From: Alphaproteobacteria bacterium | GTDB lineage: Bacteria > Pseudomonadota > Alphaproteobacteria > Ferrovibrionales > Ferrovibrionaceae | Direction: 5' to 3' | Assembly: GCA_947473805.1 (NCBI GenBank) | Contig: CANJGB010000010.1 | Span: forward strand, 1-64,000 | DNA length: 64,000 nt | In this document: one piece after another, positions 32,861-53,113 of the stretch | Layout: each line of letters opens with the position of its first letter | Numbering within the stretch: position 1 is the first letter of the stretch | The notes under the pieces: model-generated | The model's database searches: none | Seen by the model: the letters and a program-made list of their open reading frames with translations, nothing else | What the model was told of the DNA's origin: nothing | Program-made: the position numbers and the translations under genes

Positions 32861-32873
32861 ATCGCCTGCCGCG

Positions 32874-35299: not shown

Positions 35300-35378
35300 C
35301 GTTCATAAACCGCTTTTGGAGATCGCAACTGAGGGTCGCTTAAGGACGGGGGCCGTGCCTGTCAAGCCGGAGACGTGT

Positions 35379-37357: not shown

Positions 37358-38362
37358 TCAGCGCTTGCTGTTTTTTGCCAGATAGTCCCGATACCACGCG
37401 ACAGTCGCCGCCAGCGCGGCGTCGAAGTCGAACCGCGGCTGCCACCCCAACATCTGGCGTGCCTTGTCCGAGTTCACCTGCATGAAGCGGATTTCCGCCT
37501 GTGCCGTGGCGTTGATCTGCGGCTCGCCGCGATAGTCCATCAGGTCACACAGCCGGCGCACGATGGCGAGGATCTCGATATCGACCTCGTGCGAGAAATT
37601 GAACGCCTCGCCGCGCAGGGCGGGATTCGTTGGCAAGTGCTGGGTCAGGATCAGCTGCGTATCGACGGCGTCCTCGATGTACAGGAAGTCGCGCGTGAAC
37701 TTGCCGTCCGAACGCAGCGTGACCTGCTCGCCGGCCATGATACTGCGGATCGTGCCGGGAATAATCCGGTGCCAGTTGAAGTCCCAGCCACCGAAATAGT
37801 TCGCGCAACGCGTCACCGCCACCGGTAGGCCATAGACCTTGCCGTGGCTCTGGGTCATCAGGTCCTGTGCCGCCTTGGCCACCTCGTAGGGATGGCGAGG
37901 CGCCAGGTTCTTTGATTCCCGATAGGGCACTTCCTGCGGGCCATAGGCCTTGTCCGAGGACGAGGTGACCACGGCGCAGTGCGGTTGCGACGTGCGCACG
38001 ACTTCGAGCAGGTTCAGCGTGCTGTCGATGGCGCTGCGATAGCTCTCGGCGGGAAACTTGTAGGCGTGCTCGACGTCGGAATCGGCGGCGAGGTGGAACG
38101 CGGCGTCGACGCGGCCGCCATCGAATGCCGCCTGTACGGTTTCCTTCGCTGCCGCGTCGCCAGCGACGATCCGGCACTGACCGCGCAGTCCCGCCAGGTC
38201 GAACTGGCTTTCCGGCCGTTCGCGCCGGACGATGGCGGTGACTTTCGTACCGTAGCCCAGCAACCGCGCCGCCAACCAGCCACCGAGAAAGCCTGTCGCG
38301 CCGGTGATAACGACGTGCTTGCCGGCCCAGTATGCCGGATCGACGACGGCTTTCTCAGCCAT
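37358..38362 (-). CDS. NAD-dependent dehydratase/epimerase, CDP-glucose 4,6-dehydratase-like
   Basis: 334 residues. VVITGATGFLGGWLAARLLGYG is the NAD site; TSSSDKAYGPQ carries the SDK motif typical of CDP-glucose 4,6-dehydratase (RfbG), and the catalytic Tyr/Lys are in HPYEVAK. ANYFGGWDFNWHRIIPG and KFTRDFLYIED are also RfbG-like. ATG 38360-38362 overlaps the upstream gene by 8 bp; a TTG at 38389 is weaker. With the RfbF-like enzyme it would give CDP-4-keto-6-deoxyglucose. Confidence 0.82.
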   Translation of the reverse strand: MAEKAVVDPAYWAGKHVVITGATGFLGGWLAARLLGYGTKVTAIVRRERPESQFDLAGLRGQCRIVAGDAAAKETVQAAFDGGRVDAAFHLAADSDVEHAYKFPAESYRSAIDSTLNLLEVVRTSQPHCAVVTSSSDKAYGPQEVPYRESKNLAPRHPYEVAKAAQDLMTQSHGKVYGLPVAVTRCANYFGGWDFNWHRIIPGTIRSIMAGEQVTLRSDGKFTRDFLYIEDAVDTQLILTQHLPTNPALRGEAFNFSHEVDIEILAIVRRLCDLMDYRGEPQINATAQAEIRFMQVNSDKARQMLGWQPRFDFDAALAATVAWYRDYLAKNSKR

Positions 38363-39398
38363 GGTCAGTCCAGCGAAAGTCCGCGTCAATTCTGCCGCTG
38401 GAGCGCAGCGTCTGGATGCGCTTCAGGCGGATATAGCGTTCGCCCAGCAGGTCGTCCGCGTCGGGCTTGTGCAGCTTGAGCCAGGCCAGCAGTTCGGCCG
38501 CGCCCTTTTCCAGGTTCCACTGCGGGTCGAAGCCCGGCAGTTCGGTGAGGGCGCGGGTGAAATCGACCTTGTAGCTTCGCGGATCGCCGCCGGTTTCTCC
38601 GGTGATCTCGATGCGGCAGCCGGGCAGAGCGGCGGCGGCGATCTCGGCGATCTCGCGCACCGTGTAATTGCAGTTGCGGCCGCCCACATTGAATACCGTG
38701 TGCTTCAGCCCGCCGACCGGCGCCTGGGCGGCACAGAGAGCGGCGCGGCTGATGTCCTCGATATGGACCATCGGGCGGCACGGCGTGCCATCCGACAGCA
38801 CGCGGATCACGCCGGTCGTGTAGCCATAGGCCATCAGGTTGTTCAGCACGAGGTCGAGCCGCGTGCGCGCGCTGACGCCGTAGGCGGTCGCGTTGCGCAG
38901 CAGGACCGGCTCGAAGTCCTTGTCGGCCAGGGCCTGCAAAGCTGCTTCGCCATCAACCTTCGAGCGCGCATAGGCCGAGACCGGTGCGAACGGCGCACTT
39001 TCGTCGAGCGCGCCCGCACTGGCGCCCGAGGCGCCGTAGAGCGAGCAGGACGAGGCCATGACGAAACGGCGCACGCCGGCCTTCTTCGCCATGGCACCGC
39101 AGCGGCCGGTGCCGCCGGTATTGATATCGTCGGTCTTGGCCGCGACGATGTCGCCCATGGGGTCGTTCGACAGGGCGGCGAGATGCACCACGGCATCGAT
39201 CCCGCGAAAGGCGGCTTCATCGATGTTGCGGATGTCGCCAGCGATTTCTCGATCGGGATGGCAGTCCTTTGACGCGTCCTCGATCTGGTCCCGGAAATAC
39301 CCGGTGTCGTAGCCCACTACCTCATGCCCGGCCTGGTGGAACAGGCGAATCATGACGGGGCCGATATAGCCGCAATGTCCGGTAATCAGAACGCGCAT
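38355..39398 (-). CDS. NAD-dependent sugar epimerase/dehydratase
   Basis: 347 residues of extended-SDR type: VLITGHCGYIGPVMIRLFHQ, VVHLAALSNDP, ASSCSLYG and catalytic YARSK, and a C-terminal NDP-sugar domain with RPMVHIEDISRA. AAGGAA lies eight bases before ATG 39396-39398. First gene of the minus-strand operon, whose upstream region is shared with the divergent pse operon. The exact reaction (C4 epimerisation, 4-keto reduction) is undetermined. Confidence 0.82.
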   Translation of the reverse strand: MRVLITGHCGYIGPVMIRLFHQAGHEVVGYDTGYFRDQIEDASKDCHPDREIAGDIRNIDEAAFRGIDAVVHLAALSNDPMGDIVAAKTDDINTGGTGRCGAMAKKAGVRRFVMASSCSLYGASGASAGALDESAPFAPVSAYARSKVDGEAALQALADKDFEPVLLRNATAYGVSARTRLDLVLNNLMAYGYTTGVIRVLSDGTPCRPMVHIEDISRAALCAAQAPVGGLKHTVFNVGGRNCNYTVREIAEIAAAALPGCRIEITGETGGDPRSYKVDFTRALTELPGFDPQWNLEKGAAELLAWLKLHKPDADDLLGERYIRLKRIQTLRSSGRIDADFRWTDHG

Positions 39399-39521
39399 AC
39401 TTAATTCCTTGCGTAGACGCGGGCGTGCCCGACGATTCGCGCTGTCTAGATATGGGCGCTTATACCGGGGGCTTTGATTAGGCGCCACAGTCGAACCGCC
39501 ACTTGGCCTCCCGTAGTAACC

Positions 39522-39550
39522 TTGACCGTCTTTGGCGTTCACGTTATGAA
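39522..39550 (+). promoter_or_regulatory. Sigma-70-like promoter of the nonulosonic acid operon
   Basis: TTGACC (39522-39527) and TATGAA (39545-39550) are separated by exactly 17 bases, a near-consensus housekeeping promoter. It lies about 50 bp before the pseB start in the 208-bp region between the two divergent glycan operons. The match was found by eye; no transcript data exist here. Confidence 0.6.
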
Positions 39551-39606
39551 CATTGGACTTACGGACGGGCCTTCACCCGCCGTGCGGTAGCATTGGTAAT
39601 AGATTT

Positions 39607-40683
39607 ATGATCGCCACAAAGACGCGAGACTTCAATCCTAATAAAGTGACCTTGGCAGGCCAGTCGGTTCTTGTTACCGGCGGTACCGGCTCGTTTGGTA
39701 AGGCTTTCGTTCGTACAGTACTGAATGAAAAAGCGCCTCCACGCCGCCTCCTCGTTTTTTCGCGGGACGAACAGAAGCAAGAGGAGATGGCGCGCGAATT
39801 TCCTGTCAGCCAGTACCCGATGATCCGTTATTTCATCGGTGACGTGCGTGACGCGGACCGGTTGGAACTGGCGATGAACGGCGTCGACTGCGTCGTCCAC
39901 GCCGCCGCACTCAAGATCGTCCCGACGGCCGAATACAACCCGTTCGAGTGCATCAAGACCAATGTTCATGGTGCGGAGAACGTGGTCAAGGCGAGCCTGC
40001 GGGCGAAAGTTAAAAAGGTAATCGCGCTATCTACCGACAAGGCGGCGAACCCGGTCAATCTGTATGGTGCCAGCAAGCTTGCAGCCGACAAGATATTCGT
40101 TGCCGCCAACAACCTTGCCGGCGAGGAAGGCGCCGATTTTGCGATTGTGCGTTACGGCAACGTTGTGGGCTCGCGCGGTTCGGTAGTGCCGTTCTTCTAT
40201 GAACTGGTGGCGCGGGGCGCGCAGGAAGTGCCGATCACCGATCCCCGCATGACCCGCTTCTGGATCACGCTGGAACAGGGTGTGCAGTTCGTCCTGTCCT
40301 CCCTGGCGATGATGCGAGGCGGCGAGATATTTGTGCCGAAGATTCCGAGCATGAAGCTTGTCGATTTGGCAACGACAGTGGCTCCTGGCCTGCAGCAAAA
40401 GACCGTCGGCATTCGTCCCGGCGAGAAACTGCACGAAGTGATGATTACCGAGGACGACGCGCGCTCAACGCTCGAGCTTGATGACCGCTACGTCATCTGC
40501 CCGAATTTTGGCAGTTTCGACATCTCCGGCTACACCAAGGCGGGCGGACGACAGGTTGCGGAAGAATTCCGCTACGCCAGTGACACTAATTCCGAATGGC
40601 TTGATTCCATGAGCCTTGAAGGCATGTTGGGTGCAAAGGGCGAGGCCGCCGTTGTGCGACCGGGGCATGGAGACCGGAAATGA
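39607..40683 (+). CDS. pseB: UDP-N-acetylglucosamine 4,6-dehydratase (inverting), PseB
   Basis: 358 residues. The NAD site GGTGSFG (25-31), FSRDEQKQEEMAREFP, HAAALKIVPTAEYNP, STDKAANPVNLYGASK with the catalytic Thr/Asp/Lys and Tyr/Lys, and YGNVVGSRGSVVPFF are diagnostic for PseB/FlaA1. It converts UDP-GlcNAc to UDP-4-keto-2-acetamido-2,6-dideoxy-L-arabino-hexose, step one of pseudaminic acid synthesis. ATG 39607 is used; an upstream in-frame start at 39553 overlaps the promoter. Ends by ATGA overlap with the amidotransferase gene. Confidence 0.93.
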   Translation: MIATKTRDFNPNKVTLAGQSVLVTGGTGSFGKAFVRTVLNEKAPPRRLLVFSRDEQKQEEMAREFPVSQYPMIRYFIGDVRDADRLELAMNGVDCVVHAAALKIVPTAEYNPFECIKTNVHGAENVVKASLRAKVKKVIALSTDKAANPVNLYGASKLAADKIFVAANNLAGEEGADFAIVRYGNVVGSRGSVVPFFYELVARGAQEVPITDPRMTRFWITLEQGVQFVLSSLAMMRGGEIFVPKIPSMKLVDLATTVAPGLQQKTVGIRPGEKLHEVMITEDDARSTLELDDRYVICPNFGSFDISGYTKAGGRQVAEEFRYASDTNSEWLDSMSLEGMLGAKGEAAVVRPGHGDRK

Positions 40684-41888
40684 AAAGTTGCAGCAGTTGC
40701 GTGATGCCCGAGACGGCCGAAACGCTGAGCTACGATAACAAGGGCGTGTGTTCCGTTTGCCGTCAGATCGAATTCAAGCAGGAAGGCATAGATTGGAAGC
40801 AGCGCAGCGTCGATCTTGACGGGTTGCTCGCCGACTCGCGTGGCCAGAGTGACTATGACTGCATTCTGCCTTTTTCCGGCGGCAAAGATTCGACCTACAC
40901 GCTCTGGTACGTGGTCAAGAAGCTTAAGCTGAAGCCGCTCGTCGTGTGCTTCGACCACGGTTTTATGCGGTCGACGTTGCTGGAAAACAACTTGCGCACC
41001 TTCCGGCTGCTGGGCGTCGATGTGGTGAACTTCACGCCCAACTGGCAAGTGGTGCGCAAGCTGATGTTCGAGGCGTTGCGCCGCCGCGGAGATTTCTGCT
41101 GGCACTGTCATACAGGCATCTTCGCGTACCCGATGTGGGTTGCGCTGGAAAAGAAGATTCCGCTGGTGATATGGGGCGAACCTTCGGCCGAGTATTCCTC
41201 GTTCTATGGCTATGACGAAGAAGAGGAAGTCGACGAGCGCCGCTTCAATACGATCGTGAACCTGGGCATCAACGCCGAAGACATGCTCGGTATGCTCGAC
41301 AACACCATCTCCGACTACCCCGTCACGGCGCGGGACCTGAAGCCGTTTACTTATCCGCCATCGTCAGAACTGCGCAAACTGCGCATGCGGTCGATTTGCC
41401 TCGGGTCCTATATTCCCTGGGACGTGAAGAAGCAGGTGGAGCTGATCCGCAAGGAACTTGGCTGGCGCGGTGACGAGGTCGAGGGCGTGCCGCCGGAATA
41501 CGACTACGAGAAAATCGAATGCTTCATGCAGGGCGTTCGTGACTACCTGAAATATCTCAAGAGAGGCTTTGGCCGTACCACGCACCTAGTATCAATCGAC
41601 ATCCGTAACGGCCGCAAGACCCGTGAGGAGGGCGCGGCGCTGGTCGCTGAATACGACGGGAAACGTCCGGGTTCGCTGGACCTGTTTCTGGACTTCCTCG
41701 GTATCGACGAAGAGACCCTGATGAAGCTTGTGGAGCCGCATATTGTGGCCCCACAGCAGCCGCTCGATGTCGAATGGGCGCAGAGCCACCGCATGAACCA
41801 GAAGCCGTGGGATGCGGATCAGTGGTCGCGCACCGGGCGTGGCAAGGACGCAAGCATACAGTCGACAGATGCGAATTCACGTCGTTGA
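40680..41888 (+). CDS. N-acetyl sugar amidotransferase (WbpG/PseA-like)
   Basis: 402 residues. Two CxxC pairs at the N-terminus (C4/C7, C24/C27) probably bind zinc, and SGGKDS (66-71) is the PP-loop ATP-pyrophosphatase motif. FCWHCHTGIF and VIWGEPSAEY are family-specific. With ammonia from HisH/HisF-type partners, WbpG-family enzymes turn an N-acetyl group into an acetamidino group on aminosugars or nonulosonic acids. Coupled on both sides (ATGA before; 20-bp overlap with hisH). Confidence 0.92.
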   Translation: MKSCSSCVMPETAETLSYDNKGVCSVCRQIEFKQEGIDWKQRSVDLDGLLADSRGQSDYDCILPFSGGKDSTYTLWYVVKKLKLKPLVVCFDHGFMRSTLLENNLRTFRLLGVDVVNFTPNWQVVRKLMFEALRRRGDFCWHCHTGIFAYPMWVALEKKIPLVIWGEPSAEYSSFYGYDEEEEVDERRFNTIVNLGINAEDMLGMLDNTISDYPVTARDLKPFTYPPSSELRKLRMRSICLGSYIPWDVKKQVELIRKELGWRGDEVEGVPPEYDYEKIECFMQGVRDYLKYLKRGFGRTTHLVSIDIRNGRKTREEGAALVAEYDGKRPGSLDLFLDFLGIDEETLMKLVEPHIVAPQQPLDVEWAQSHRMNQKPWDADQWSRTGRGKDASIQSTDANSRR

Positions 41889-42492
41889 CTATGGCGCGGG
41901 TAACGTCAAATCGGTATGCGTTGCTCTTGAACGCATTGGGGCCGCCCCTTTTCTGACGGCGAATCCATCTGATCTAGCCGGGGCTGACCGTATTATTCTA
42001 CCAGGCGTGGGCGCGGCGGGGCATGCAATTCAGAGCCTCCGCCGAAGCGGCTTTGCCGATGCACTCGAGCGGCGCGTGCGCCGCGACGGTGTGCCGATGC
42101 TCGGTATCTGCGTCGGCATGCAGGTTCTGGCGGAGAGGCTGTTTGAACTTGGTGAGCACAAAGGCTTGGGCTGGGTGGCCGGCGATGTGCGGGCATTGAG
42201 CAATCTCGGTGTTTCCAAACTCCGGATTCCGCACACAGGCTGGAACGATATTCTTCCCGCCGCCGAGAATGATGCCGCGTTGGGGCGGTCGACGCGTGAG
42301 CGTCTTTTCTATTTCAATCACGGTTTCGCGCTGCATGCCGACGATTGCACCGTTTCTGCCCGGGTCGAATACGGCCAGAAATTGGTGGCGGCGTTACGAT
42401 TCGACAGTATCTGGGCGGTTCAATTCCACCCGGAAAAAAGCCAACAGAACGGTCTGCGACTGCTCGCGGCCTTTGCCGACTGGCAGCCCTGA
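41869..42492 (+). CDS. hisH: HisH-type glutamine amidotransferase subunit serving the sugar amidotransferase
   Basis: 207 residues of class I glutaminase with the complete triad: C81 (GICVGMQ), H187 and E189 (QFHPEKSQ). IHVVDYGAGNVKSV and LPGVGAAGHAI are HisH-like. It sits between the amidotransferase and a modified hisF and away from any his operon gene, so it most likely releases ammonia from glutamine for amidino-group formation, as the WbpG/HisH2/HisF2 set does in Pseudomonas O-antigen clusters. ATG 41869 lies within the previous gene. Confidence 0.88.
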   Translation: MRIHVVDYGAGNVKSVCVALERIGAAPFLTANPSDLAGADRIILPGVGAAGHAIQSLRRSGFADALERRVRRDGVPMLGICVGMQVLAERLFELGEHKGLGWVAGDVRALSNLGVSKLRIPHTGWNDILPAAENDAALGRSTRERLFYFNHGFALHADDCTVSARVEYGQKLVAALRFDSIWAVQFHPEKSQQNGLRLLAAFADWQP

Positions 42493-42495
42493 GAC

Positions 42496-43251
42496 ATGTT
42501 GCGAAACAGGCTCATCCCCAGTCTGCTTATTTCGCGTCGCCGGTTGGTAAAGGGTGTTCGCTTTGCCGATCACCGCGATGCCGGGTCACCGGGCACCACC
42601 GCGAGGGCCCACAGTGCGCAAGGCGCCGATGAACTGCTGGTCCTCGATATCGACGCCGACCGCGAGGGGCGTGGTCCCGATCTTTCCGCGTTGGCGGACG
42701 TTGTGACAGAGGTGCAGGTACCGTTGACGGTTGGTGGCGGCATTCGAGACGAACGGGCTGCCGCCGCCTGTTTTGAGGCGGGGGCCGACAAAATCTGTCT
42801 AACCACGACGGCGCTCGATCAGCCCGATCTGATCGACCGGCTGGCCAAGGTTTACGGCGCGCAGGCGGTCATGGTCGGTATCGACCTGTATGAGAACGAT
42901 GACGGACATCAGCTCTACGACTATCGGGCTAAGGCCTGCATGCCGGGCAGAAACTGGCTCTCATGGCTCGACGAGGCGGTAGACCGGGGAGCCGGTGAAA
43001 TACACCTTGCGTCGGTCAATCGCGAGGGCACGCGCGCGGGCTACGATCTTGCCGCTCACGGGAAGGCGCGCGATCGCGTGGTGGTGCCGCTGATTCTGGA
43101 CGGCGGGGCCGGTACCCTAGATCACCTGGCCGAGGCGATGGGGGCCGGAGCCGATGCGCTGGCCATGGGCACGATGCTGGTCTTTTCTGACAACAACATC
43201 GTCAAACTGAAGCGCTTTCTGGCCGGCGCTGGCTTTCCGATGCGTATCTGA
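42496..43251 (+). CDS. hisF: HisF-type cyclase homologue lacking the histidine-pathway aspartates
   Basis: 251 residues of (beta/alpha)8 HisF fold with VGGGIRDERAA and LILDGGAGTLDHL. In HisF, D11 and D130 are catalytic. Position 11 is Leu here (LIPSLLIS for the usual IACLDV), D130 is kept (VGIDLYE) and the D176 equivalent is Asn175 (SVNREGTRAGYD). The barrel can probably still dock HisH and channel ammonia but not make IGP. Three bases after hisH, and its stop overlaps the next start (TGATG). Confidence 0.85.
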   Translation: MLRNRLIPSLLISRRRLVKGVRFADHRDAGSPGTTARAHSAQGADELLVLDIDADREGRGPDLSALADVVTEVQVPLTVGGGIRDERAAAACFEAGADKICLTTTALDQPDLIDRLAKVYGAQAVMVGIDLYENDDGHQLYDYRAKACMPGRNWLSWLDEAVDRGAGEIHLASVNREGTRAGYDLAAHGKARDRVVVPLILDGGAGTLDHLAEAMGAGADALAMGTMLVFSDNNIVKLKRFLAGAGFPMRI

Positions 43252-43781
43252 TGCTGCCGGAACTCGTTACGCCACGCATGATCCTCCGGCAAATCGTTCC
43301 GGCTGATGCCGCGGGGCCGTACTTACAATGGATGAACGATATTGAAGTCGTACGCTGGCTGGAGGCGCGGGGGCGCGTCTACACGAGGGATGACTTGATT
43401 TCATTCATCCGCATCCATACCGAGGACCGACGCTTTCACTTCTTCGCCATGACATTGCGAGACGGCCATTCGCATATCGGCAACATCAAGCTGGGTCCGG
43501 TGGATTCGGTCAATCGGCGCGCAGACCTCGGCATAATTGTGGGCGAGCGTGCAGCCTGGGGCCGCGGCTATGCCCGTGAGGCGATCAGCGCGGTGACGGA
43601 CTATGCTTTCGGCAAGCTGGGCCTGCACAAGGTCACGGCCGGATGCTACGGCGCGAACGAGGGCTCGCGCCGGGCCTTCCTGGCGGCTGGGTTCACCCAC
43701 GAAGGTACCCGTAAAGGCCAGTTCTGGGATGGCCCTGCGTGGCAGGACGAATTGTTGTTCGGACGGCTGGCCGCGCAATGA
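43251..43781 (+). CDS. GNAT N-acetyltransferase (RimJ/RimL type)
   Basis: 176 residues. LVTPRMILRQIVPADA, HIGNIKLGPVDSVNRRADLGI and GRGYAREAISAVTDYAFGKLGLHKV (with the pyrophosphate-binding loop) and NEGSRRAFLAAGF are typical. In a nonulosonic acid cluster it is a good candidate for the PseH step (4-amino acetylation), although PseG also carries a GNAT domain here. Acyl donor could also be formyl-free acetyl-CoA only; other acyl groups cannot be excluded. Overlaps both neighbours. Confidence 0.85.
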   Translation: MLPELVTPRMILRQIVPADAAGPYLQWMNDIEVVRWLEARGRVYTRDDLISFIRIHTEDRRFHFFAMTLRDGHSHIGNIKLGPVDSVNRRADLGIIVGERAAWGRGYAREAISAVTDYAFGKLGLHKVTAGCYGANEGSRRAFLAAGFTHEGTRKGQFWDGPAWQDELLFGRLAAQ

Positions 43782-44743
43782 CGGAAGCGGTTGCCGTTCT
43801 GGGCTTGGGTTCCATCGGCTTGCGGCACGCGCGCAACCTGCGGTCTCTTGGGGTATCCGTCATTGGCTTCGATCCGCTACCTGCGCGCCGCGATCTTGTC
43901 GCCGCCGAGGGCATGGCGACGGCTCGCAGCCGGGATGAGGCCATCGACGGTTCGCGCGCCGTGGTGGTTGCAACACCCAATCTGCTTCATCTCACCGATC
44001 TTGCCGCTGCGGTGGACGCAGGCCGGCACGTATTCATCGAGAAGCCGCTGGCGCACACGACCGTTGGAGTGGCAGATATTTTGGCGCGGGCTCGCGCGAA
44101 GCACCTTGTCGTCTTCGCTGGGCTCATGTTGCGTTGGCACCCCGCCGTGACCTGGGCCGCGGCGCGCATCAATGACGGCGCGTTGGGAGAGCTCCTTTGG
44201 GGGCGCTCGATCTGCGCCAGCCATTTGCCGTCTTGGCGGCCGGGGCAGGATCATCGCGTAGGCTACGCGTCCGATCAGAAGACCGGCGGCGTACTATTCG
44301 ACGTGATCCATGAATTCGACCTGCTGCACCATCTGCTGGGTGCCTATCGGGTGGCCACATGTACAGTCCGATGTACGGGTCGCCTCGGCATTCCGAGCGA
44401 CGACCTTGCTGATGCCGTTCTTGCGCACGCGGGCGGCGCGCAGTCGTCGCTTCATGTCGACTACTTGACCCCGGTGCCTGTCCGCGTCACCGACGTGACT
44501 GGAACGCTGGGGCGTCTTTCCATCGACCTGATCGCGCGTAGTGCGACGTTTTGGCGCGCCGGTAGCGTCCCTGAATTGACCAACTTCGTCGGCAGCTATG
44601 ATGAAGATTACGTTGCCGAGATGCGCGATTTCATGGCCTGCATGGCCGGAGAAAAAGTACCCCGCTGCAGTGGAGAAGAGGCGTTGACCGTGTTGGAACA
44701 GATCGTCGATGCGCGGCGTATCGCCACGCTGCCCGCGGCATGA
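43778..44743 (+). CDS. Gfo/Idh/MocA-like oxidoreductase
   Basis: 321 residues. VAVLGLGSIGLRHARNLRSLG, VVVATPNLLHLTDLAAA, FIEKPLAHT, and GGVLFDVIHEFDLLHHLLG in the second domain with its conserved D-x-x-H equivalent. ATG 43778 overlaps the GNAT stop (ATGA); the next gene overlaps in the same way. Probably forms or removes a keto group on a sugar before transamination by the fused enzyme encoded next. Confidence 0.85.
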   Translation: MTEAVAVLGLGSIGLRHARNLRSLGVSVIGFDPLPARRDLVAAEGMATARSRDEAIDGSRAVVVATPNLLHLTDLAAAVDAGRHVFIEKPLAHTTVGVADILARARAKHLVVFAGLMLRWHPAVTWAAARINDGALGELLWGRSICASHLPSWRPGQDHRVGYASDQKTGGVLFDVIHEFDLLHHLLGAYRVATCTVRCTGRLGIPSDDLADAVLAHAGGAQSSLHVDYLTPVPVRVTDVTGTLGRLSIDLIARSATFWRAGSVPELTNFVGSYDEDYVAEMRDFMACMAGEKVPRCSGEEALTVLEQIVDARRIATLPAA

Positions 44744-46773
44744 CTACCGTCGCCATCATCCAGGCGCGGATGGGGTCCTCACGCCTTCCCGGCAAGGTGC
44801 TGCGCCTGCTGAGAGGCCGGCCTGTACTCGAGTGGGTCGTCAGTGCCGCGCGCGCTGCGCCCGGTGTAGATAAGGTGGTCGTTGCAACATCTGTGTCAGC
44901 CGCTGACGACGCGGTCCAAGGCTGGGCCGATGGGCAGGGCGTTGCCTGTTTCCGCGGTTCGGAAGGAGATGTTCTTGACCGCTTTCTTGGTGCGGCCCGT
45001 GCGGCTTCCGCGACGGTTGTCGTCCGTCTCACCGCGGATTGTCCGCTGCTTGATCCTGCGGTCATCGGGCAGGTGGTCTTGCGCCTCGAACAGGGCAGTT
45101 CCGATTATGTCAGCAACTGCGACCCACCGACCTGGCCCGATGGTCTCGATGTAGAGGCATTCACCATGGCGGCTTTGGAAGAAGCCGCGCGAGATGCCAC
45201 CCGCGCATCAGACCGCGAACATGTAACACCATTTCTGCGCAACAATCGCACTCGTTTCAGGGTCGATAACCTGACCTGTCCCGTTCCCCATCTTGAGGGG
45301 CTGCGGTGGACGCTTGACGACGAGGCGGACTGGAGGCGCATCAGCGCGATCGTTGAGCGACTTGCGTCTGACAGCCCACCAGGTTTCGTCGCGACCGCGC
45401 GCGCTGCCGCTGGCGTGCCGCCCGAAGTTGCGGCGCTGCGTAACGAGGGACTGGCCGCGTCAATCGCTGCCGACCAGCCGCTCGCGACGACCTCATTTGA
45501 TCGTTCGACCGCGCTGCTTGCCCGCGCCGAACAGGTGATACCCCTGGGCTCGCAGACGTTTTCGAAAAGCCGAATTCAGTATCCGGTCGGCGCCGCGCCG
45601 CTCTTCCTCACTCACGGCCACAGGGGCCGGGTGTGGGATGTGGACGGCAATGAGTATGTCGATCTTGTTAGTGGGCTTTTGCCAGTGGTGCTCGGATACC
45701 GGGACCCGGACGTCGACTACGCCATCCGCCAGCAGCTCGACCGTGGCATATCGTTCAGTCTGGCGACCGACCTCGAAGTTGAGCTTGCGGAGCGCCTGCG
45801 ACGACACATTCCGTGCGCCGAGATGGTGCGTTACGGAAAGAACGGCACCGATGCAACTAGCGCCGCGGTTCGCCTCGCCCGTGCCTACACCGGGCGCGAA
45901 CGGGTGGCGGTCTGCGGCTATCATGGGTGGCAGGATTGGTATATCGGTTCAACGACGCGGCATCTCGGCGTTCCGAATGCGGTGCGCGAGCTGACTGACG
46001 TCCTTCCCTATGGCGACTTGGCGTCCGTCGAGCGGTTGCTTGAAACGCGCAAGGGAGAGATCGCGGCGCTGGTCATAGAACCGACCAATGTCGTGGCGCC
46101 GCCTGATGGCTATCTGGCGGGCTTGCGTGATTTGTTGCACCGGCATGGCGCGCTCCTGGTTTTTGACGAGGTCATCACGGGATTCCGTTGGTCGCTCGGC
46201 GGCGCGCAGGTTGTCTACGGCGTAACGCCCGACCTTGCCGCATTCGGCAAGGCGATGGGAAACGGCATGCCGATTTCGGCGGTGGTCGGCCGAGCCGATA
46301 TCATGCGCCGAATGGAGGACATCTTCTTTTCGGGGACCTTTGGCGGCGAGGCTCTCTCGCTTGCCGCTTCGATAGCCACGATCGACAAGCTCGAGCGCGA
46401 GCATGTCATTGAGTACCTCTGGTTCTACGGCGCTCGATTGCAGCAGGCGACGCAGGAGCGGATAGACGCGCATGGCCTCGCGAACGTTATCGAGCATGTC
46501 GGGCAGTCGCCGTGGCACATCCTGAATATAAAGGACCATGAAAGCGCCCCCAAGGAAGCGATAAAAACCCTGTTCCTGCAGGAAATATTCTGTGGTGGCG
46601 TGCTGATGAGTGGCGGCCACAACGTGTGCTGGGCACATGACGAGCGCGATCTCGCGCGTACTGTAGCCGCCTATGACCGCGCTTGCGCTGCGGTGGCCGA
46701 GGCGCTGAAGTGCGGCGGCTTGGCCGAACGGCTGGGCAACCGCATACTGCGACCCGTTTTCTCGGTGCGTTGA
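44740..46773 (+). CDS. Fusion: SpsF-type cytidylyltransferase + class III PLP aminotransferase
   Basis: 677 residues. Residues 1-240 are an SpsF/CMP-NeuAc-synthetase-like nucleotidyltransferase (IIQARMGSSRLPGKVL, FRGSEGDVLDRF, TADCPLLDP). Residues about 255-677 are a glutamate-1-semialdehyde-aminomutase-like aminotransferase: YHGW (394-397), D476 in FDEVITGFR binding the PLP nitrogen, and Schiff-base K504 in AFGKAMGNGMP. The frame is continuous with no internal stop. These activities are normally on separate proteins. The fusion may couple amination of a sugar to its nucleotide activation. Confidence 0.88.
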   Translation: MTTVAIIQARMGSSRLPGKVLRLLRGRPVLEWVVSAARAAPGVDKVVVATSVSAADDAVQGWADGQGVACFRGSEGDVLDRFLGAARAASATVVVRLTADCPLLDPAVIGQVVLRLEQGSSDYVSNCDPPTWPDGLDVEAFTMAALEEAARDATRASDREHVTPFLRNNRTRFRVDNLTCPVPHLEGLRWTLDDEADWRRISAIVERLASDSPPGFVATARAAAGVPPEVAALRNEGLAASIAADQPLATTSFDRSTALLARAEQVIPLGSQTFSKSRIQYPVGAAPLFLTHGHRGRVWDVDGNEYVDLVSGLLPVVLGYRDPDVDYAIRQQLDRGISFSLATDLEVELAERLRRHIPCAEMVRYGKNGTDATSAAVRLARAYTGRERVAVCGYHGWQDWYIGSTTRHLGVPNAVRELTDVLPYGDLASVERLLETRKGEIAALVIEPTNVVAPPDGYLAGLRDLLHRHGALLVFDEVITGFRWSLGGAQVVYGVTPDLAAFGKAMGNGMPISAVVGRADIMRRMEDIFFSGTFGGEALSLAASIATIDKLEREHVIEYLWFYGARLQQATQERIDAHGLANVIEHVGQSPWHILNIKDHESAPKEAIKTLFLQEIFCGGVLMSGGHNVCWAHDERDLARTVAAYDRACAAVAEALKCGGLAERLGNRILRPVFSVR

Positions 46774-46774
46774 G

Positions 46775-47968
46775 GTGAACAAGCCGGTGTTCCTGCCGTA
46801 CGGTCGTCAGTGGATCGAGGATGACGACGTTGCGGCCGTGGCCAAGGTGCTTACCGGCGAATTTCTGACGACGGGACCGGCGGTCGCAAGCTTCGAGGCG
46901 GCCTTCGCCAGCAAGGTAGGGGCGCCCTACGCGGCGAGCTGTTCGTCGGGAACTGCCGGTCTCCACCTTGCAATGCTCGCGCTGGGTATAGGCGCGGGGG
47001 ACGTGGTAATTTCGCCGGCGATAACCTTCGTCGCGACCGCCAATGCCGCGCGCTATGTCGGGGCCGATGTCGTTTTTGCCGATTGCGATCCGGAAACCGG
47101 ACTTATGCGTCCGCAAGATCTATCCGACGCGCTTCGCAGAGTGCCTGCCAACCGGCGTGCACGATGCGTGAATGTCGTCCACATGTGCGGTCAGCCGGCC
47201 GACATGGGCGCAATCGCCGATTTGGCCAGAAAGCACGGCCTGTATATCGTCGAGGATGCGTGCCACGCGATCGGTGCGCGCTTCGGCGACCACCTTGTAG
47301 GTGCCTGCCACGTGTCGGATATGGCGGTATTCTCGCTGCATCCCGTTAAATTGATCGCAATGGGCGAAGGTGGCGTTGTGACGACGCGAGATCCCGAACT
47401 GCACCGGCGCCTGAAACTGCTGTCCAGCCATGGCTTGGTGCGTGACCCCGCGCATTTTGAGGACGCGGCGGGGTTCGACGCTTCCGGTTCGCCAAATCCC
47501 TGGTATTACGAAATGCCAGAGATCGGCTTCAATTACCGAGCCCCGGATATCCTTTGCGCGCTGGGTGAGTCCCAGCTTAAAAAGACCGAACGCTTCCTTG
47601 AGCGTCGCGAAACGCTGGCGCGTCGCTATGACCGCGCGCTGTCGCCGCTTTCCGCGTTGATACGGCCACTAGAACGGCTGGCCGGCCGCTCGTCGGGCTG
47701 GCACCTGTATGCGGTTTTGATCGACTTTCAGCGCTTGGAACTCTCTCGCGCACAACTGATGGCCCGACTGCGCGACGACTATGGCGTCGGTACCCAGGTT
47801 CACTACATTCCAGTAAACCGACAGCCCTACTACCGGTCGCTTTACGGCTACGACCCGCTGCCGGGCGCGGAAAGCTACTATGCGCGAACGCTTTCATTGC
47901 CATTGTTTCCCGCCATGCATGACCGCGACGTGGATCGTGTCGTCGATGCCCTCAAACAGTGTCTATGA
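46775..47968 (+). CDS. pseC: UDP-4-amino-4,6-dideoxy-N-acetyl-altrosamine transaminase, PseC
   Basis: 397 residues of DegT/DnrJ/EryC1 type. FLPYGRQWIEDDDVAAV, the PLP-phosphate SGTAGLHLA, VEDACHAIGA and Schiff-base K192 in FSLHPVKLIAMGEGG match PseC closely. It aminates C4 of the PseB product with glutamate as donor. Start GTG 46775 lies one base after the fused gene stop (TGAGGTG). The stop overlaps the pseG start. Confidence 0.9.
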   Translation: MNKPVFLPYGRQWIEDDDVAAVAKVLTGEFLTTGPAVASFEAAFASKVGAPYAASCSSGTAGLHLAMLALGIGAGDVVISPAITFVATANAARYVGADVVFADCDPETGLMRPQDLSDALRRVPANRRARCVNVVHMCGQPADMGAIADLARKHGLYIVEDACHAIGARFGDHLVGACHVSDMAVFSLHPVKLIAMGEGGVVTTRDPELHRRLKLLSSHGLVRDPAHFEDAAGFDASGSPNPWYYEMPEIGFNYRAPDILCALGESQLKKTERFLERRETLARRYDRALSPLSALIRPLERLAGRSSGWHLYAVLIDFQRLELSRAQLMARLRDDYGVGTQVHYIPVNRQPYYRSLYGYDPLPGAESYYARTLSLPLFPAMHDRDVDRVVDALKQCL

Positions 47969-49401
47969 CGCTATCCGCAGTACTACGCTGCGCGGCATCG
48001 CCATCGACGGGTGGGGGGCACGTCATCCGCTGCCTCGCGATTGCGGAACTAGCGGCGCACATGGGGTGGGAGTGCTCATTCCTCTCGCCGCCGGAATCTG
48101 CTGCCGTGGTGCCGCAGATGCGGTCGTTCCGCCGGATCGACGCGCCCCCCTCGCATGCCGATATTGTAGTGGTGGACGATTATCAGACAGGCCTTCTCTG
48201 GGAAAGTTCATCCCGCGCCTGGGCCGGGCGCGTTGTCGTGATCGATGATTTCGCCGTGCGGAAACACGACTGTGACCTACTTGTCGATTCGAGCCCGATC
48301 CGCAACCCCTTTGACTACGGTCCGTGGGTGCCGGCAGGGACAAGAGTAATGACGGGTCCGGCGTTCGCGCCGTTGCGTGACCAGTATCGGCGGGCGCGAC
48401 CGGGGGCCCTGCATCGGCGCCAGAGCGCCGGAATTCGCAACGTACTCATAAACTTCGGTGCCAGCGATCCCTTGGGGCGGGCGGTGCTGGCTGCGCAGGC
48501 GACGCTCTCGGCGCTCCCTGATGCGACGGTTACCGTAGTCGCTGGTGCCGGTTCGCCGCACCGTCGGGCACTGGACGATATTGCGGCGGAGGCGCCGGCG
48601 CGGTTTCGCATCCTAGATGCCGTAGCGGACATGGCGGCACTTATGGCGGAGGCAGACGTGGCAATTGGGGCGGCGGGGCACAGTTCGTGGGAACGTTGTG
48701 CTCTCGGTCTGCCGACAATCGTACTGCCGACCGCCGACAATCAGCGCGACAACCTTAAGGCGCTGGTGTCGGCAGGCGCGGCTGAGCATGTCGATGATGC
48801 GCATGTTTCCGTCGACGGGATCGCACGGAAACTGAAGGTTTTAGCGGGAGATCCCGAGCGATTGACGGCGCTCTCCAGGAACGCTGCGCAACTTTGCGAT
48901 GGCCGTGGCGCTATCCGCATCGTCGTTGCTGCACTGTCTGCCAGACAGTCGGCCCGAAATGGAAAGTTCGTTGCGCTCAGGCCGGCGGAGGCCGCCGACG
49001 CAAAGCAGTTGTTTGCGTGGCAGACCGACGAGCAAACGCGCCGGTTCTTCCGGAATCCACGGGCACCCACTTGGAGCGAACACGAGCTCTGGCTTGGGCA
49101 AGTGTTGGAGGACCCGTCGCAATTTCTTTTTCTCGTTGAGTGCGGCGGCCTCCCTGCCGGTTCTGTTCGGCTGGTGGAAATTCCCCGCGGATTGAGTGAG
49201 GTGTCAATTTATGTCGCGCCTGGGATGTATCGCGGTGGAATAGGCAAGGCGGCTCTGAACCTGCTTCGTCGCCTGTTTCCCCGCAAGATATTCAGCGCGG
49301 ACGTTCTCGCTGGCAACGATGCATCCGCGGCACTCTTTCTGGGCTCGGGATATTGCCGGGAAAGCAGCGGCATGTACGTGCAACACCCGCCACAGGGTTG
49401 A
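47965..49401 (+). CDS. pseG: PseG UDP-sugar hydrolase fused to GNAT acetyltransferase
   Basis: 478 residues. The N-terminal GT-B-like PseG part (1-330) has STGGGHVIRCLAIAELA with the catalytic-type H19, VVVDDYQTG, FGASDPLG and GAAGHSSWERCALGLP. From about 335 a GNAT domain follows (FVALRPAEAADAKQLFAWQ, GMYRGGIGKAALNLL, NDASAALFLGSGY), replacing a separate PseH. PseG removes UDP from the altrosamine derivative. ATG 47965 overlaps the pseC stop (ATGA); GTG 47959 is a weaker choice. Confidence 0.9.
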   Translation: MTLSAVLRCAASPSTGGGHVIRCLAIAELAAHMGWECSFLSPPESAAVVPQMRSFRRIDAPPSHADIVVVDDYQTGLLWESSSRAWAGRVVVIDDFAVRKHDCDLLVDSSPIRNPFDYGPWVPAGTRVMTGPAFAPLRDQYRRARPGALHRRQSAGIRNVLINFGASDPLGRAVLAAQATLSALPDATVTVVAGAGSPHRRALDDIAAEAPARFRILDAVADMAALMAEADVAIGAAGHSSWERCALGLPTIVLPTADNQRDNLKALVSAGAAEHVDDAHVSVDGIARKLKVLAGDPERLTALSRNAAQLCDGRGAIRIVVAALSARQSARNGKFVALRPAEAADAKQLFAWQTDEQTRRFFRNPRAPTWSEHELWLGQVLEDPSQFLFLVECGGLPAGSVRLVEIPRGLSEVSIYVAPGMYRGGIGKAALNLLRRLFPRKIFSADVLAGNDASAALFLGSGYCRESSGMYVQHPPQG

Positions 49402-50081
49402 CCTTGCTTTTTGCCGTCGCGACCATAAAACCGTGGAACGTTGCTCAGTTTCATCGCCGGGTGCCGGAATTTCCCGGCGAATGGCGGTTGCTGGAGACGC
49501 CGGCGGCGCTCGAGGCATTCGCGGCCAGCGAACGGCCACGGTATATTTTCTTTCCCCACTGGTCATGGCGTGTGCCGGCGGCGCTGCTGAACCAGCATAA
49601 CTGCGTTTGTTTTCACATGACGGATCTGCCTTTCGGGCGTGGCGGCAGCCCGTTGCAGAACCTGATCGCGACCGGGCGACGGGAAACGAAGATTTCGGCG
49701 CTTAGAATGGTCGAGGAGCTCGACGCCGGCGACATTTACCTAAAGCGCCCTCTCGATCTTTCGGGCTCGGCGCAGCAGATCTACGAGCGCGCGGCGGGGA
49801 TTGTGTATGAGATGATTGGTGAAATGGCCCGGACCGACCCAGCACCAATACCCCAGTTGGGCGAGGTGACGACGTTCCACCGACGCCGCCCGGAGCAAAG
49901 CCTCCTGCCGGACAGCGGTGAACTTGGCCGCCTATACGACCACATACGCATGCTCGACGCCGAAACCTACCCACATGCTTTCGTCGAACACGGTGAGTTT
50001 CGCCTAGAGTTTTCCGACGCCGAACTTGAAGACGGCAGATTGAGTGCGAAGGTGACGATGAGCCGCAGGCCGCAGCGATGA
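49398..50081 (+). CDS. Formyltransferase-like enzyme
   Basis: 227 residues with a divergent Fmt/sugar N-formyltransferase core: NCVCFHMTDLPFGRGGSPLQNLI supplies the N...H pair and LDAGDIYLKRPLDLSGSAQ the Asp. The usual HPSLLP loop is replaced by HMTDLPFG, as in a subset of glycan-associated members. Start TTG 49398 overlaps the pseG stop (TTGA). The C-terminal part (FRLEFSDAELEDGRLSAKVTM) is a short beta domain. Likely N-formylates an amino group on the nonulosonic acid precursor. Confidence 0.72.
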   Translation: MTLLFAVATIKPWNVAQFHRRVPEFPGEWRLLETPAALEAFAASERPRYIFFPHWSWRVPAALLNQHNCVCFHMTDLPFGRGGSPLQNLIATGRRETKISALRMVEELDAGDIYLKRPLDLSGSAQQIYERAAGIVYEMIGEMARTDPAPIPQLGEVTTFHRRRPEQSLLPDSGELGRLYDHIRMLDAETYPHAFVEHGEFRLEFSDAELEDGRLSAKVTMSRRPQR

Positions 50082-50764
50082 CCGACGTGCAAAAGGACAG
50101 GATACTTGTCGTGGCGGCTCATCCCGACGACGAGGTTCTAGGCTGTGGAGGCGCCGTCGCACGCCATGTCGACGAGGGATGCACCGTCGATGTTGTCATC
50201 GTCGCGGAGGGTGCCCTGTCGCGGGCCGATGCGACTTCCGCCGATGTCGAAAGCCTGAAACTGGCGGCGGCCAAAGCGGCGCACTTGCTGGGGGCCAACG
50301 GGCCGACGTTCCTCGGACTGCCGGACAATCGGCTGGATACGGTGCCGCTGCTCGACGTAGTTCAACACGTCGAGCGAATTGTAGGCGAGTTGAGACCGAC
50401 GATTGTTTACACCCATCACGCTGGCGATCTGAACATCGATCATCAGGTTGTACATCGTGCCGTCGTTTCGGCCTGCCGTCCGATACCCGGGCAATCAATC
50501 AGAACGATCCGGACATTCGAAACGGTGTCCAGTACGGAATGGTCGTTCGGAGTCGGCCTGCCCTTTGTGCCGACACTGTTTGTGGATATATCAGCAGCGC
50601 TTGAACGAAAACTGGCCGCACTCGAAGCCTATCACAGCGAGATGAGGGATTTCCCACATCCTCGCTCGGCAGATAATGTCAGAGCCTTGGCCCATCTTCG
50701 TGGCGCGACGGCAGGACTGCGAGCGGCCGAGGCGTTCATGACGGTGAGGGACGTGATCAGATGA
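50078..50764 (+). CDS. PIG-L family N-deacetylase
   Basis: 228 residues. AAHPDDEVLGCGG (metal-binding HPDDE at 15-19) and THHAGDLNIDHQVVH provide the zinc ligands and catalytic Asp of the LmbE/PIG-L fold. SADNVRALAHLRGATAGLRAAEAF is the usual C-terminal helix. These enzymes remove acetyl from GlcNAc-type amines. Placed directly after a formyltransferase (ATGA overlap) it suggests that an acetyl is replaced by formyl. Confidence 0.88.
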   Translation: MTDVQKDRILVVAAHPDDEVLGCGGAVARHVDEGCTVDVVIVAEGALSRADATSADVESLKLAAAKAAHLLGANGPTFLGLPDNRLDTVPLLDVVQHVERIVGELRPTIVYTHHAGDLNIDHQVVHRAVVSACRPIPGQSIRTIRTFETVSSTEWSFGVGLPFVPTLFVDISAALERKLAALEAYHSEMRDFPHPRSADNVRALAHLRGATAGLRAAEAFMTVRDVIR

Positions 50765-51816
50765 CGGCGCCATTTGATATTGCCGGTCGGCAGATCGGGA
50801 TTGGGCACCCGCCATACGTAATCGCCGAGATGTCTGCCAACCACAATGGCGATATCAGGCGCGCCTACGATTTGCTGGAAGCGGCGAAAAAGGCTGGCGC
50901 CGACGCCGTCAAGTTGCAGACTTATACTGCGGACACGATGACGATCGATCATGCCGGCCGGGAATTCACTATCGAGGGCGGTCTGTGGGACGGGCGGCAG
51001 TTGTACGACCTCTATACCGAGGCATCGACTCCGTGGGAGTGGCATCGGCAATTGTTCGAGCGGGGGCGCGCTCTCGGACTGCACGTCTTCAGCACGCCCT
51101 TCGACTCGACGGCGGTGGATTTTCTCGAGGAACTGCAGGCTCCGGCATACAAGATCGCCTCGTTTGAACTGCTCGACCTGCCACTCATTCAACGTGTTGC
51201 GGCTACCGGCAAACCCATCATCATGTCGACCGGGATGGCCGACCGCGCCGAAATCGCCGAGGCCGTCGCCGCGGCGAGAACTGCGGGCGCCACTAGTCTG
51301 GCTCTATTGCACTGCGTCAGTGGCTATCCGGCGCCCGTGGAAGAGGCCAACCTGCGTACCATCGCTGACATGACGGCTGCGTTTGGCTGTACTGTCGGCC
51401 TGTCGGACCATACGCTTGGATCGGATGTCGCGATCGCCGCAGTGGCTGTTGGTGCGTCGATGATCGAGAAACATGTAACGCTGGCGCGCGCCGATGGTGG
51501 GCCGGACTCCGCCTTTTCACTCGAGCCCGACGAACTCGCGCGTCTTTGCGGCGGTGTCGCTACGGCATGGCGGTCGCTTGGCTACGTTACCTATGAGCGG
51601 CAACCAAGCGAGGTGCAGAATCTGCAGTTCCGTCGCTCCATTTATGTAGTCGAGGATATCCGGGCCGGTGAGACATTGAGCGAACGTAATGTGCGCGCGA
51701 TCCGCCCCGGGTTCGGGCTGCCGCCGAAGCATATGCCCGACCTTCTGGGTCGGGTTGCAGAAGTCGATATTAAGCGCGGCACGGCGATGCGTTTCGAATT
51801 TCTCAAGCCGAGATAA
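50761..51816 (+). CDS. pseI: Pseudaminic acid synthase, PseI (NeuB family)
   Basis: 351 residues. YVIAEMSANHNGDIRRAYDLLEAA, AVKLQTYTADTMT, FSTPFDSTAVDFLE, KIASFELLDLPLI and GLSDHTLGSDVAIAAVA are strongly PseI-like, with a C-terminal SAF/antifreeze-like domain (RSIYVVEDIRAGETLSERNVRAIRPG). It condenses the PseG product with phosphoenolpyruvate to pseudaminic acid. Overlaps the deacetylase by ATGA. Confidence 0.93.
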   Translation: MTAPFDIAGRQIGIGHPPYVIAEMSANHNGDIRRAYDLLEAAKKAGADAVKLQTYTADTMTIDHAGREFTIEGGLWDGRQLYDLYTEASTPWEWHRQLFERGRALGLHVFSTPFDSTAVDFLEELQAPAYKIASFELLDLPLIQRVAATGKPIIMSTGMADRAEIAEAVAAARTAGATSLALLHCVSGYPAPVEEANLRTIADMTAAFGCTVGLSDHTLGSDVAIAAVAVGASMIEKHVTLARADGGPDSAFSLEPDELARLCGGVATAWRSLGYVTYERQPSEVQNLQFRRSIYVVEDIRAGETLSERNVRAIRPGFGLPPKHMPDLLGRVAEVDIKRGTAMRFEFLKPR

Positions 51817-51834
51817 GTGAAGGGGACCGTTGCC

Positions 51835-53112
51835 GTGAGCAAGCTTGCGCTGCTGGGTGGGCCATCTTCCGTGACCGCACCGCTTCCGTTGTTCCGGACT
51901 ATCGGAAGGCGCGAGCGTGAGTTGGTAAACGAGGTGCTCGACAATGGACTTTTGTCGGGCTTTTTCGGATCTTGGAGTCCCGAGTTCTACGGCGGCGCCA
52001 TGGTGCGTCGGCTGGAGGAGCACTGGGCGACCATGTTCGGCGCCCGTCACGCCGTGTCCATGAATTCCGCGACGTCCGGGCTAATTGCGGCAATGGGGGC
52101 AATAGGCATTGGGCCCGGGGACGAGGTAATCGTCCCGCCGTACACCATGTCGGCAACCGCTATCGCGCCGCTTTTCTACGGCGGGATTCCCGTGTTCGCT
52201 GACATCGAGGCACAGACCTTTTGCCTAGATCCGGCAAAGGTTGCGGCGCTAGTAAGTCCGCGTACTAAGGCGATCATTGCCGTGAACCTGTTCGGCCACC
52301 CGGCGCCGCTTGCCGAGTTGCGCGCGCTTGCCGACAAGCATGGAATCTCCCTGGTCGAAGACAACGCGCAGGGCATTCTGGCGCGGGAGAGCGGGCGGTA
52401 TGCCGGCACCATTGGGCACATCGGGGTTTTCAGCCTGAATGTGCACAAGCATATCCAGGCCGGCGAGGGCGGCATCTGCACGACTGACGACCCCGCGCTG
52501 GCGTTGCGCCTGCAGGCGATCAGGAACCACGGCGAGAACGTGGTGAATGCCGCCGGCATCACCGACTTGACCAACATGGTGGGTTTCAATTTCCGTATGA
52601 CCGAACTATCGGCCGCGGTCGGCCTTGCCCAGCTTGAAAAGGTCGAGGACCTGGTCGCCGGACGCCAGGCGCTTGCTCGCGATTTGAGCGCAGGTCTAAC
52701 CGGCCTCCCCGGCGTTACGCCGCCAGAGGTCCGCGCCGGCTGCGAGCACGTATATTATGTTCTGGCCTTGCGCATCGACGAAGGCGCACTCGGGTTGAGC
52801 CGAGACCTGTTCGTGAAGGCGGTTGAGGCCGAGGGCATTCCCCTCTACGCCGGCTACATCAACCCGCTCTACCGGCTGCCCATGTTTCAGCAGCGCATTG
52901 CCATTGGGGGCGGTGGTTTTCCGTTTAGTCTCGATCCAGGCAGAACCTATGCGGACGGCCTGTGCCCGGTGACCGAGCGCATGCATGATGAGCAGTTCGT
53001 CGGCTACGAAATCTGCGCCTACGATCCGACGCCCGAACAGGTGGCCCAGATGGTGGCCGGCGTTCGGAAAGTGGTCGAGAACCGCCGCGAATTGAGTGAG
53101 CGGGCCGCCTGA
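51835..53112 (+). CDS. DegT/DnrJ/EryC1-family aminotransferase
   Basis: 425 residues. KLALLGGPSSVTAPLPLF, NSATSGLIAAMGAIGIGPGD, VEDNAQGILA and the Schiff-base Lys in FSLNVHKHIQAGEGG. GTG 51835 is chosen because AAGGGG lies about ten bases upstream; GTG 51817 would add six residues. A second DegT-type enzyme besides PseC, so either another amino sugar is made or an alternative position is aminated. Followed by an SpsF-type gene, the same partnership as in the upstream fusion. Confidence 0.85.
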   Translation: MSKLALLGGPSSVTAPLPLFRTIGRRERELVNEVLDNGLLSGFFGSWSPEFYGGAMVRRLEEHWATMFGARHAVSMNSATSGLIAAMGAIGIGPGDEVIVPPYTMSATAIAPLFYGGIPVFADIEAQTFCLDPAKVAALVSPRTKAIIAVNLFGHPAPLAELRALADKHGISLVEDNAQGILARESGRYAGTIGHIGVFSLNVHKHIQAGEGGICTTDDPALALRLQAIRNHGENVVNAAGITDLTNMVGFNFRMTELSAAVGLAQLEKVEDLVAGRQALARDLSAGLTGLPGVTPPEVRAGCEHVYYVLALRIDEGALGLSRDLFVKAVEAEGIPLYAGYINPLYRLPMFQQRIAIGGGGFPFSLDPGRTYADGLCPVTERMHDEQFVGYEICAYDPTPEQVAQMVAGVRKVVENRRELSERAA

Positions 53113-53113
53113 A

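Follow-up and report, generated by a model that had tools for sequence, protein, structure and literature searches.

A predicted SpsF-class III aminotransferase fusion enzyme in a pseudaminic acid operon and its recurrence in bacteria and archaea

In the window analysed here (the whole stretch of 64,000 nucleotides from a Ferrovibrionaceae genome), one gene joins an SpsF-type cytidylyltransferase to a class III PLP aminotransferase (AT). Judged by its sequence, the product is a real, recurrent and uncharacterised enzyme, predicted to be bifunctional, in an otherwise recognisable pathway. The fusion gene is part of a complete operon for pseudaminic acid (Pse), where it lies between a dehydrogenase gene and that of PseC. 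We propose, with slightly better than even confidence, that it is a two-step enzyme for late tailoring and activation in Pse biosynthesis, the amine being placed most likely at C8. With confidence just short of even, we also suggest that the fusion marks a widespread, undescribed bacterial and archaeal branch of nonulosonic acid biosynthesis, in which a repeatedly fused module of oxidoreductase, SpsF, GNAT and AT makes CMP-8-amino-8-deoxy-pseudaminic acid derivatives. Bacterial nonulosonic acids are carried by flagella, capsules and O-antigens; if the proposal is true, it supplies the missing genes for the 8-amino nonulosonates, permits an amino-nonulosonate sugar to be predicted from genome sequence, and provides, in a single bifunctional enzyme, a tool ready for the production of CMP-amino-nonulosonates.

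The fused protein and its genomic surroundings

The gene is one uninterrupted frame, 677 codons long without its stop (Table 1), as the initial annotation had read it, and Pfam finds both of the domains named there: CTP_transf_3 (PF02348) at residues 4-174 (E 3.6e-33) and Aminotran_3 (PF00202) at residues 286-572 (E 1.1e-48). The active sites had been described as intact on the grounds of K504 and D476; this numbering is right, and the PLP lysine K504 and the PLP-ring aspartate D476 show no variation across 109 aligned relatives. With the PF00202 fold, the lysine and the ring aspartate all present, the protein has the defining features of a class III PLP aminotransferase. In the CTP_transf_3 domain, the QAR-GS-R-PGK loop and the acidic residues of the SpsF type are kept, and an alignment of 15 fusions shows no variation at Q8, A9, R10, S13, R15, P17, K19, D100 and D193. 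By its loop, residues and gene context, the N-terminal domain is predicted to be an SpsF-type CMP-nonulosonate synthetase. The canonical PseF model (TIGR03584) gives the fusion 29 bits over 48 positions, which is below the cut-off of 205.7, and no PseF above cut-off was found by this model anywhere in the genome.

The AlphaFold model of the fusion, built with the family alignment as input, has a mean pLDDT of 88 and a pTM of 0.82, and Foldseek matches it best to class III enzymes of the GSAM (glutamate-1-semialdehyde aminomutase) type, with a TM-score of about 0.85 when scaled to target length. Because the closest solved structures are GSAMs, the AT could be thought an aminomutase of this kind, shifting an amine that is already present to another carbon of the nonulosonate chain. 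We hold this to be very improbable: the GSAM loop around VKAGSGALTLGQPNSPG (VKAGSGALTLG) is about 11 residues shorter than in E. coli HemL, the "FEAGF" stretch of the E. coli enzyme, which contains the catalytic Glu, is cut down to "HN" in the fusion AT family, and the strong dehydrogenase link described below agrees better with a keto substrate supplied from outside. The presence of hemL among the best-scoring named families might suggest a heme-pathway GSAM that was misannotated and acquired its N-terminal domain by accident, but this is hardly credible, as the fusion recurs in Pse operons. HemL identity itself was ruled out by TIGR00713 (268-270 bits against a cut-off of 527.3) and by the shortening of the GSAM loop and the FEAGF stretch; moreover, the genome encodes an ALA synthase (666 bits, above cut-off), so that GSAM is not needed for heme. 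A phosphonate PntC-AEPT protein was ruled out too, the domains of the fusion being PF02348 and PF00202 and not LicC/PntC-type NTP_transf_3 and an AEP transaminase; neither Ppm nor Ppd was found among the neighbours scanned.

The fusion start overlaps the stop of the Gfo/Idh gene and PseC begins 2 bases after the fusion stop, therefore we read these genes as one operon. The pathway calls in Table 1 are scores above the curated NCBIfam cut-offs. The GNAT encoded upstream of the Gfo/Idh gene is a candidate acylase for the new amine, and formyltransferase-like and PIG-L-type genes beside PseG/PseI recur in AT-containing Pse clusters. Elsewhere in the window, a minus-strand sugar-type cluster (31925-36374) encodes a radical SAM protein, two Gfo/Idh-type proteins and a C-methyltransferase, and is adjoined by two SDR genes (37358-39542).

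Table 1. Features of the window around the fusion gene (bit scores are followed by the cut-off)
Feature	Position	Strand	Basis or remark
PseB, UDP-GlcNAc 4,6-dehydratase (inverting)	39553-40683	+	TIGR03589, 507.8 bits (407.75)
WbuX (N-acetyl sugar amidotransferase), HisH-like and HisF-like proteins, amidine-forming set	40680-43251	+	WbuX: TIGR03573, 341.8 bits (203.2)
GNAT N-acetyltransferase	43251-43781	+	Weak PseH match, below cut-off
Gfo/Idh/MocA dehydrogenase	43739-44743	+	Stop overlaps fusion ATG by 4 nt
SpsF-class III aminotransferase fusion, 677 aa	44740-46773	+	Pfam, alignments, AlphaFold model
SpsF-type cytidylyltransferase part of fusion	residues about 1-245
GSAM-like class III aminotransferase part of fusion	residues about 250-677
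PseC aminotransferase	46775-47968	+	TIGR03588, 474.3 bits (423.5)
PseG hydrolase with C-terminal PseH-like GNAT domain	47959-49401	+	TIGR03590, 190.7 bits (153.55); C-terminal domain: weak TIGR03585 match
Formyltransferase-like protein	49353-50081	+
Deacetylase-model match, labelled PIG-L	50078-50764	+
PseI pseudaminic acid synthase	50761-51816	+	TIGR03586, 501.3 bits (340.25)
DegT aminotransferase	51817-53112	+
SpsF2, unfused	53096-53857	+
Gfo/Idh of SpsF2 cassette	53854-54852	+
Protein with weak epimerase similarity	54780-55958	+
Second NeuB-type synthase	62412-63458

Downstream of PseI, SpsF2 lies next to a DegT aminotransferase gene, which had been taken for the same pairing occurring twice. 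The adjacency is real, but the pairing is not the same, because DegT belongs to another aminotransferase family and SpsF2 to a distinct clade (in the SpsF tree the path from SpsF2 to the fused SpsF is 2.24, against only 0.88 for the nearest fused relative). The cassette of DegT, SpsF2, Gfo/Idh and the epimerase-like protein (51817-55958), kept as a block at three loci (L042, L043 and L044), thus repeats the logic of dehydrogenase, cytidylyltransferase and aminotransferase with other families. The second NeuB-type synthase and a PseF-like gene 1.5 kb past the window end (contig positions 65466-66134; L205:9452-10135; 106 bits, below cut-off) suggest that the same locus probably encodes a second nonulosonate pathway. 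With SpsF2 and the PseF-like gene nearby, the cluster of the window need not rely on the fusion for CMP transfer.

Distribution of the fusion and of the conserved module

The search for other such fusions revealed 37 loci with intact SpsF-AT fusions in diverse genomes, some of them archaeal. Full-length fused relatives with 49-61% identity occur in many other genomes, which rules out an assembly or frameshift artefact; the nearest relative (L115) shares 71% identity over the AT domain. More than a dozen of 385 alphaproteobacterial genomes have full-length fusions, while in others the AT is a separate gene. With one genome taken per species, fusions or neighbouring pairs were found in Acidobacteriota, Bacteroidota, Myxococcota, Chloroflexota, Aquificota and archaea, among others. 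For example, a Pseudosulfitobacter plasmid has the order pseB, pseC, AKR (aldo-keto reductase), GNAT, hypothetical gene, fusion, pseG and pseI, and on a haloarchaeal plasmid SpsF and AT are adjacent genes behind a Gfo/Idh gene. In one fused relative (L055:8983-10869, the same protein as L172), the AT half has lost the PLP lysine and other active-site motifs; this half looks degenerate, and the SpsF half is intact. Carriers grown in the laboratory include Paramagnetospirillum marisnigri (L117), Terasakiella sp. PR1 (L121) and, with the genes unfused, Bacillus litorisediminis (L143).

In the AT tree, the label "fused" or "unfused" takes 15 changes, at least 8 of which are forced by well-supported branches, so that the SpsF and AT genes must have been joined or separated more than once; a Colwellia strain (L132), for instance, is fused while nested in an unfused Colwellia group. 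The many unfused SpsF/AT neighbour pairs show that fusion, and channelling with it, is not obligatory.

To characterise the neighbourhood, about 20 kb was annotated around each AT locus, and the PseI surroundings in the same genomes served as a control. Of the 21 alphaproteobacterial Pse loci with AT, 18 have an AKR or Gfo/Idh gene no more than 10 kb from PseI, compared with 3 of the 39 without AT (Fisher P = 1.5e-9, a value that overstates independence because Pse loci share descent, while the contrast itself is large). AKR alone is found in 10/21 against 0/39 of these loci, and a PIG-L-type gene in 8/21 against 2/39. Among 94 nonulosonate-linked AT loci, 25 lack an AKR or Gfo/Idh gene in the nearest 10.5 kb or so; some of these are at contig ends and some have a different layout (e.g. 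a Bacteroidota/Ignavibacteriota group). Several lineages, Bacillus and Colwellia among them, keep the order PseB-PseC-AKR-(GNAT)-SpsF-AT-PseG-PseI, and variants of it occur in Lachnospiraceae and in a methanogen. In the conserved module, SpsF and the class III AT are accompanied by an oxidoreductase of the AKR or Gfo/Idh type and often by a GNAT.

Parts of this module are fused in several other ways. A triple Gfo/Idh-SpsF-AT protein of 1028 residues is encoded in Acidobacteriaceae (L122:8957-12040, plus strand), and we also found Gfo-AT (L060:2083-4326), GNAT-AT (L059:8789-10573), SpsF-GNAT (L067:4112-5407 and L145:10001-11194) and PseC-AKR (L127:6959-9157) fusions. Together with the published SpsF-AKR proteins (PMC12053666, PMC7371886), these fusions link oxidoreductase, AT, N-acetyltransferase and cytidylyltransferase as one route. 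SpsF, PseG and GNAT share one frame in Pse clusters without AT (L087, L088, L092 and L107).

No other SpsF/NeuA-like gene was detected within about 10 kb in at least 19 of the 22 fusion clusters that have PseB, DegT, PseG and PseI nearby (L044 is left out of the 19, as SpsF2 is present there). In the SpsF tree, the fused SpsF groups with the SpsF of AT-less Pse clusters, including SpsF-PseG fusions. From both observations, the fused SpsF may most simply be regarded as a CMP-Pse-type synthetase. In B. subtilis, where SpsF is a stand-alone protein, cells with spsF deleted still made legionaminic acid but did not transfer it, which is what loss of the CMP step should cause (PMC7439481).

Proposed pathway and its alternatives

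The usual exchange of a hydroxyl for an amine on sugars is performed by a Gfo/Idh or AKR enzyme and then by a PLP aminotransferase (WlbA/WlbC, KdnB/KdnA). We suppose that PseB, PseC, PseG/H and PseI of the operon would build Pse, after which the Gfo/Idh protein (AKR in many relatives) would oxidise a post-PseI hydroxyl, most likely C8-OH, and the class III AT of the fusion would convert the ketone into an amine, using PLP and an amino-acid donor. The new amine would possibly be acylated or amidinated by GNAT, the formyltransferase or the WbuX/HisH/HisF set, and the SpsF domain would put the sugar on CMP, giving a CMP-8-amino-8-deoxy-pseudaminic acid derivative as the end product. Catalytic activity, the C8 position, the order of amination and CMP transfer, and the coupling of the domains are what we infer here.

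Through PseI, hexose C1 becomes C4 of the nonulosonate and hexose C5 becomes C8, and neither C4-OH nor C8-OH exists before the PseI condensation. An amine could therefore be introduced at these positions only late, close to CMP transfer, in agreement with the fusion to SpsF. The same pathway and two-step logic would hold if the amine were introduced at C4, which bears the other hydroxyl created by PseI, or if it were placed on the CMP-activated sugar and not on the free acid; sequence cannot distinguish C4 from C8 or the order of the steps, and all the context evidence fits equally. We nevertheless consider this variant rather unlikely, and we know of no 4-amino nonulosonate. By contrast, 8-amino nonulosonates are natural, the O-polysaccharide of Flexibacter maritimus containing 8-amino-3,5,7,8,9-pentadeoxynonulosonic acid (PMC3210612), and redox chemistry at C8 with an SpsF fusion is documented for EpaA/EpaB, which alter C8 of Pse (PMC12053666); this is why C8 is favoured. 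An O-antigen gene cluster is not described in the genome paper of Tenacibaculum (Flexibacter) maritimum. In the literature searched, we found no description of an enzyme for 8-amino nonulosonates, though such sugars are known chemically.

A further alternative is that the AT acts not on a sugar carbon but on a substituent, such as an amino-acyl group destined for Pse, which it would make or modify; the fusion would then merely co-produce two enzymes of one glycan. This would agree with the acceptance of many small ketones by class III aminotransferases and with the ATP-grasp, formyltransferase, GNAT and deacetylase genes that also occur in the clusters. However, the fusion partners (cytidylyltransferase, sugar-type dehydrogenase and N-acetyltransferase) are those to be expected for the oxidation, amination, acylation and activation of a sugar, which makes the substituent explanation improbable.

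Amination of the sugar itself and its activation thus remain our preferred reading, which is close to the early suggestion that the fusion may channel an amino sugar acid straight to its CMP form. The conversion is supported by the context, since one nonulosonic-acid pathway is involved and the AT tracks the oxidoreductase, and an amino-bearing CMP sugar acid is a likely outcome; direct channelling between the domains is possible. One annotated record of the fusion has only a generic aminotransferase name, and no literature naming both Pfam families together was found. We are not aware of an activity, a product or a glycan structure established for any organism that carries the fusion.

Comparison with known systems

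A similar chemical logic is that of Shewanella Kdo8N, where C8 of a ketosugar acid is oxidised by the dehydrogenase KdnB and then aminated by the aminotransferase KdnA before CMP activation. This route differs from that of the fusion in the eight-carbon Kdo, in its unrelated enzyme families and in having no fusion.

EpaA of Acinetobacter baumannii prophages resembles the protein described here in that an N-terminal CTP_transf_3 domain is joined to a tailoring enzyme; together with EpaB, EpaA changes C8 of Pse (PMC12053666). However, EpaA, which we compare by its description, has an aldo-keto reductase as the fused partner and serves C8 epimerisation, whereas here the partner is a class III AT: Pfam finds no C-terminal Aldo_ket_red domain in the fusion and Aminotran_3 in its place, so that the protein is not of the EpaA type. 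In the phage collection, nothing matched the fused SpsF domain. The nab clusters of Vibrionaceae and Moritella are similar as well, with an SpsF-aldo-keto reductase protein in a Pse-type cluster without NeuA/PseF (PMC7371886); unlike the fusion, this protein is without an aminotransferase domain and its function is only predicted.

The unfused counterpart of the module is seen in the group I polar flagellin glycosylation islands of Aeromonas, where pseC is followed, in this order, by genes for a reductase, PseF and a class III aminotransferase and by pseG (PMC7874193, the one paper found to mention such an aminotransferase in Pse islands); the genes are separate there and, as far as the available part of that paper goes, the class III aminotransferase has no specific assigned role. 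SpsF of Bacillus subtilis, which gives the SpsF type its name, represents the CMP step of a nonulosonate pathway but is a stand-alone protein serving legionaminic acid (PMC7439481). Finally, in Tde1415, a PntC-AEPT of Treponema denticola, a cytidylyltransferase is N-terminal and a PLP aminotransferase C-terminal, both activities having been shown; in contrast to the fusion, its domains are a LicC-like NTP_transf_3 and an AEP transaminase, and its substrate is a phosphonate (PMC6697681). The principle of fusing a cytidylyltransferase to an aminotransferase is therefore already precedented, by Tde1415 in different protein families (PMC6697681).
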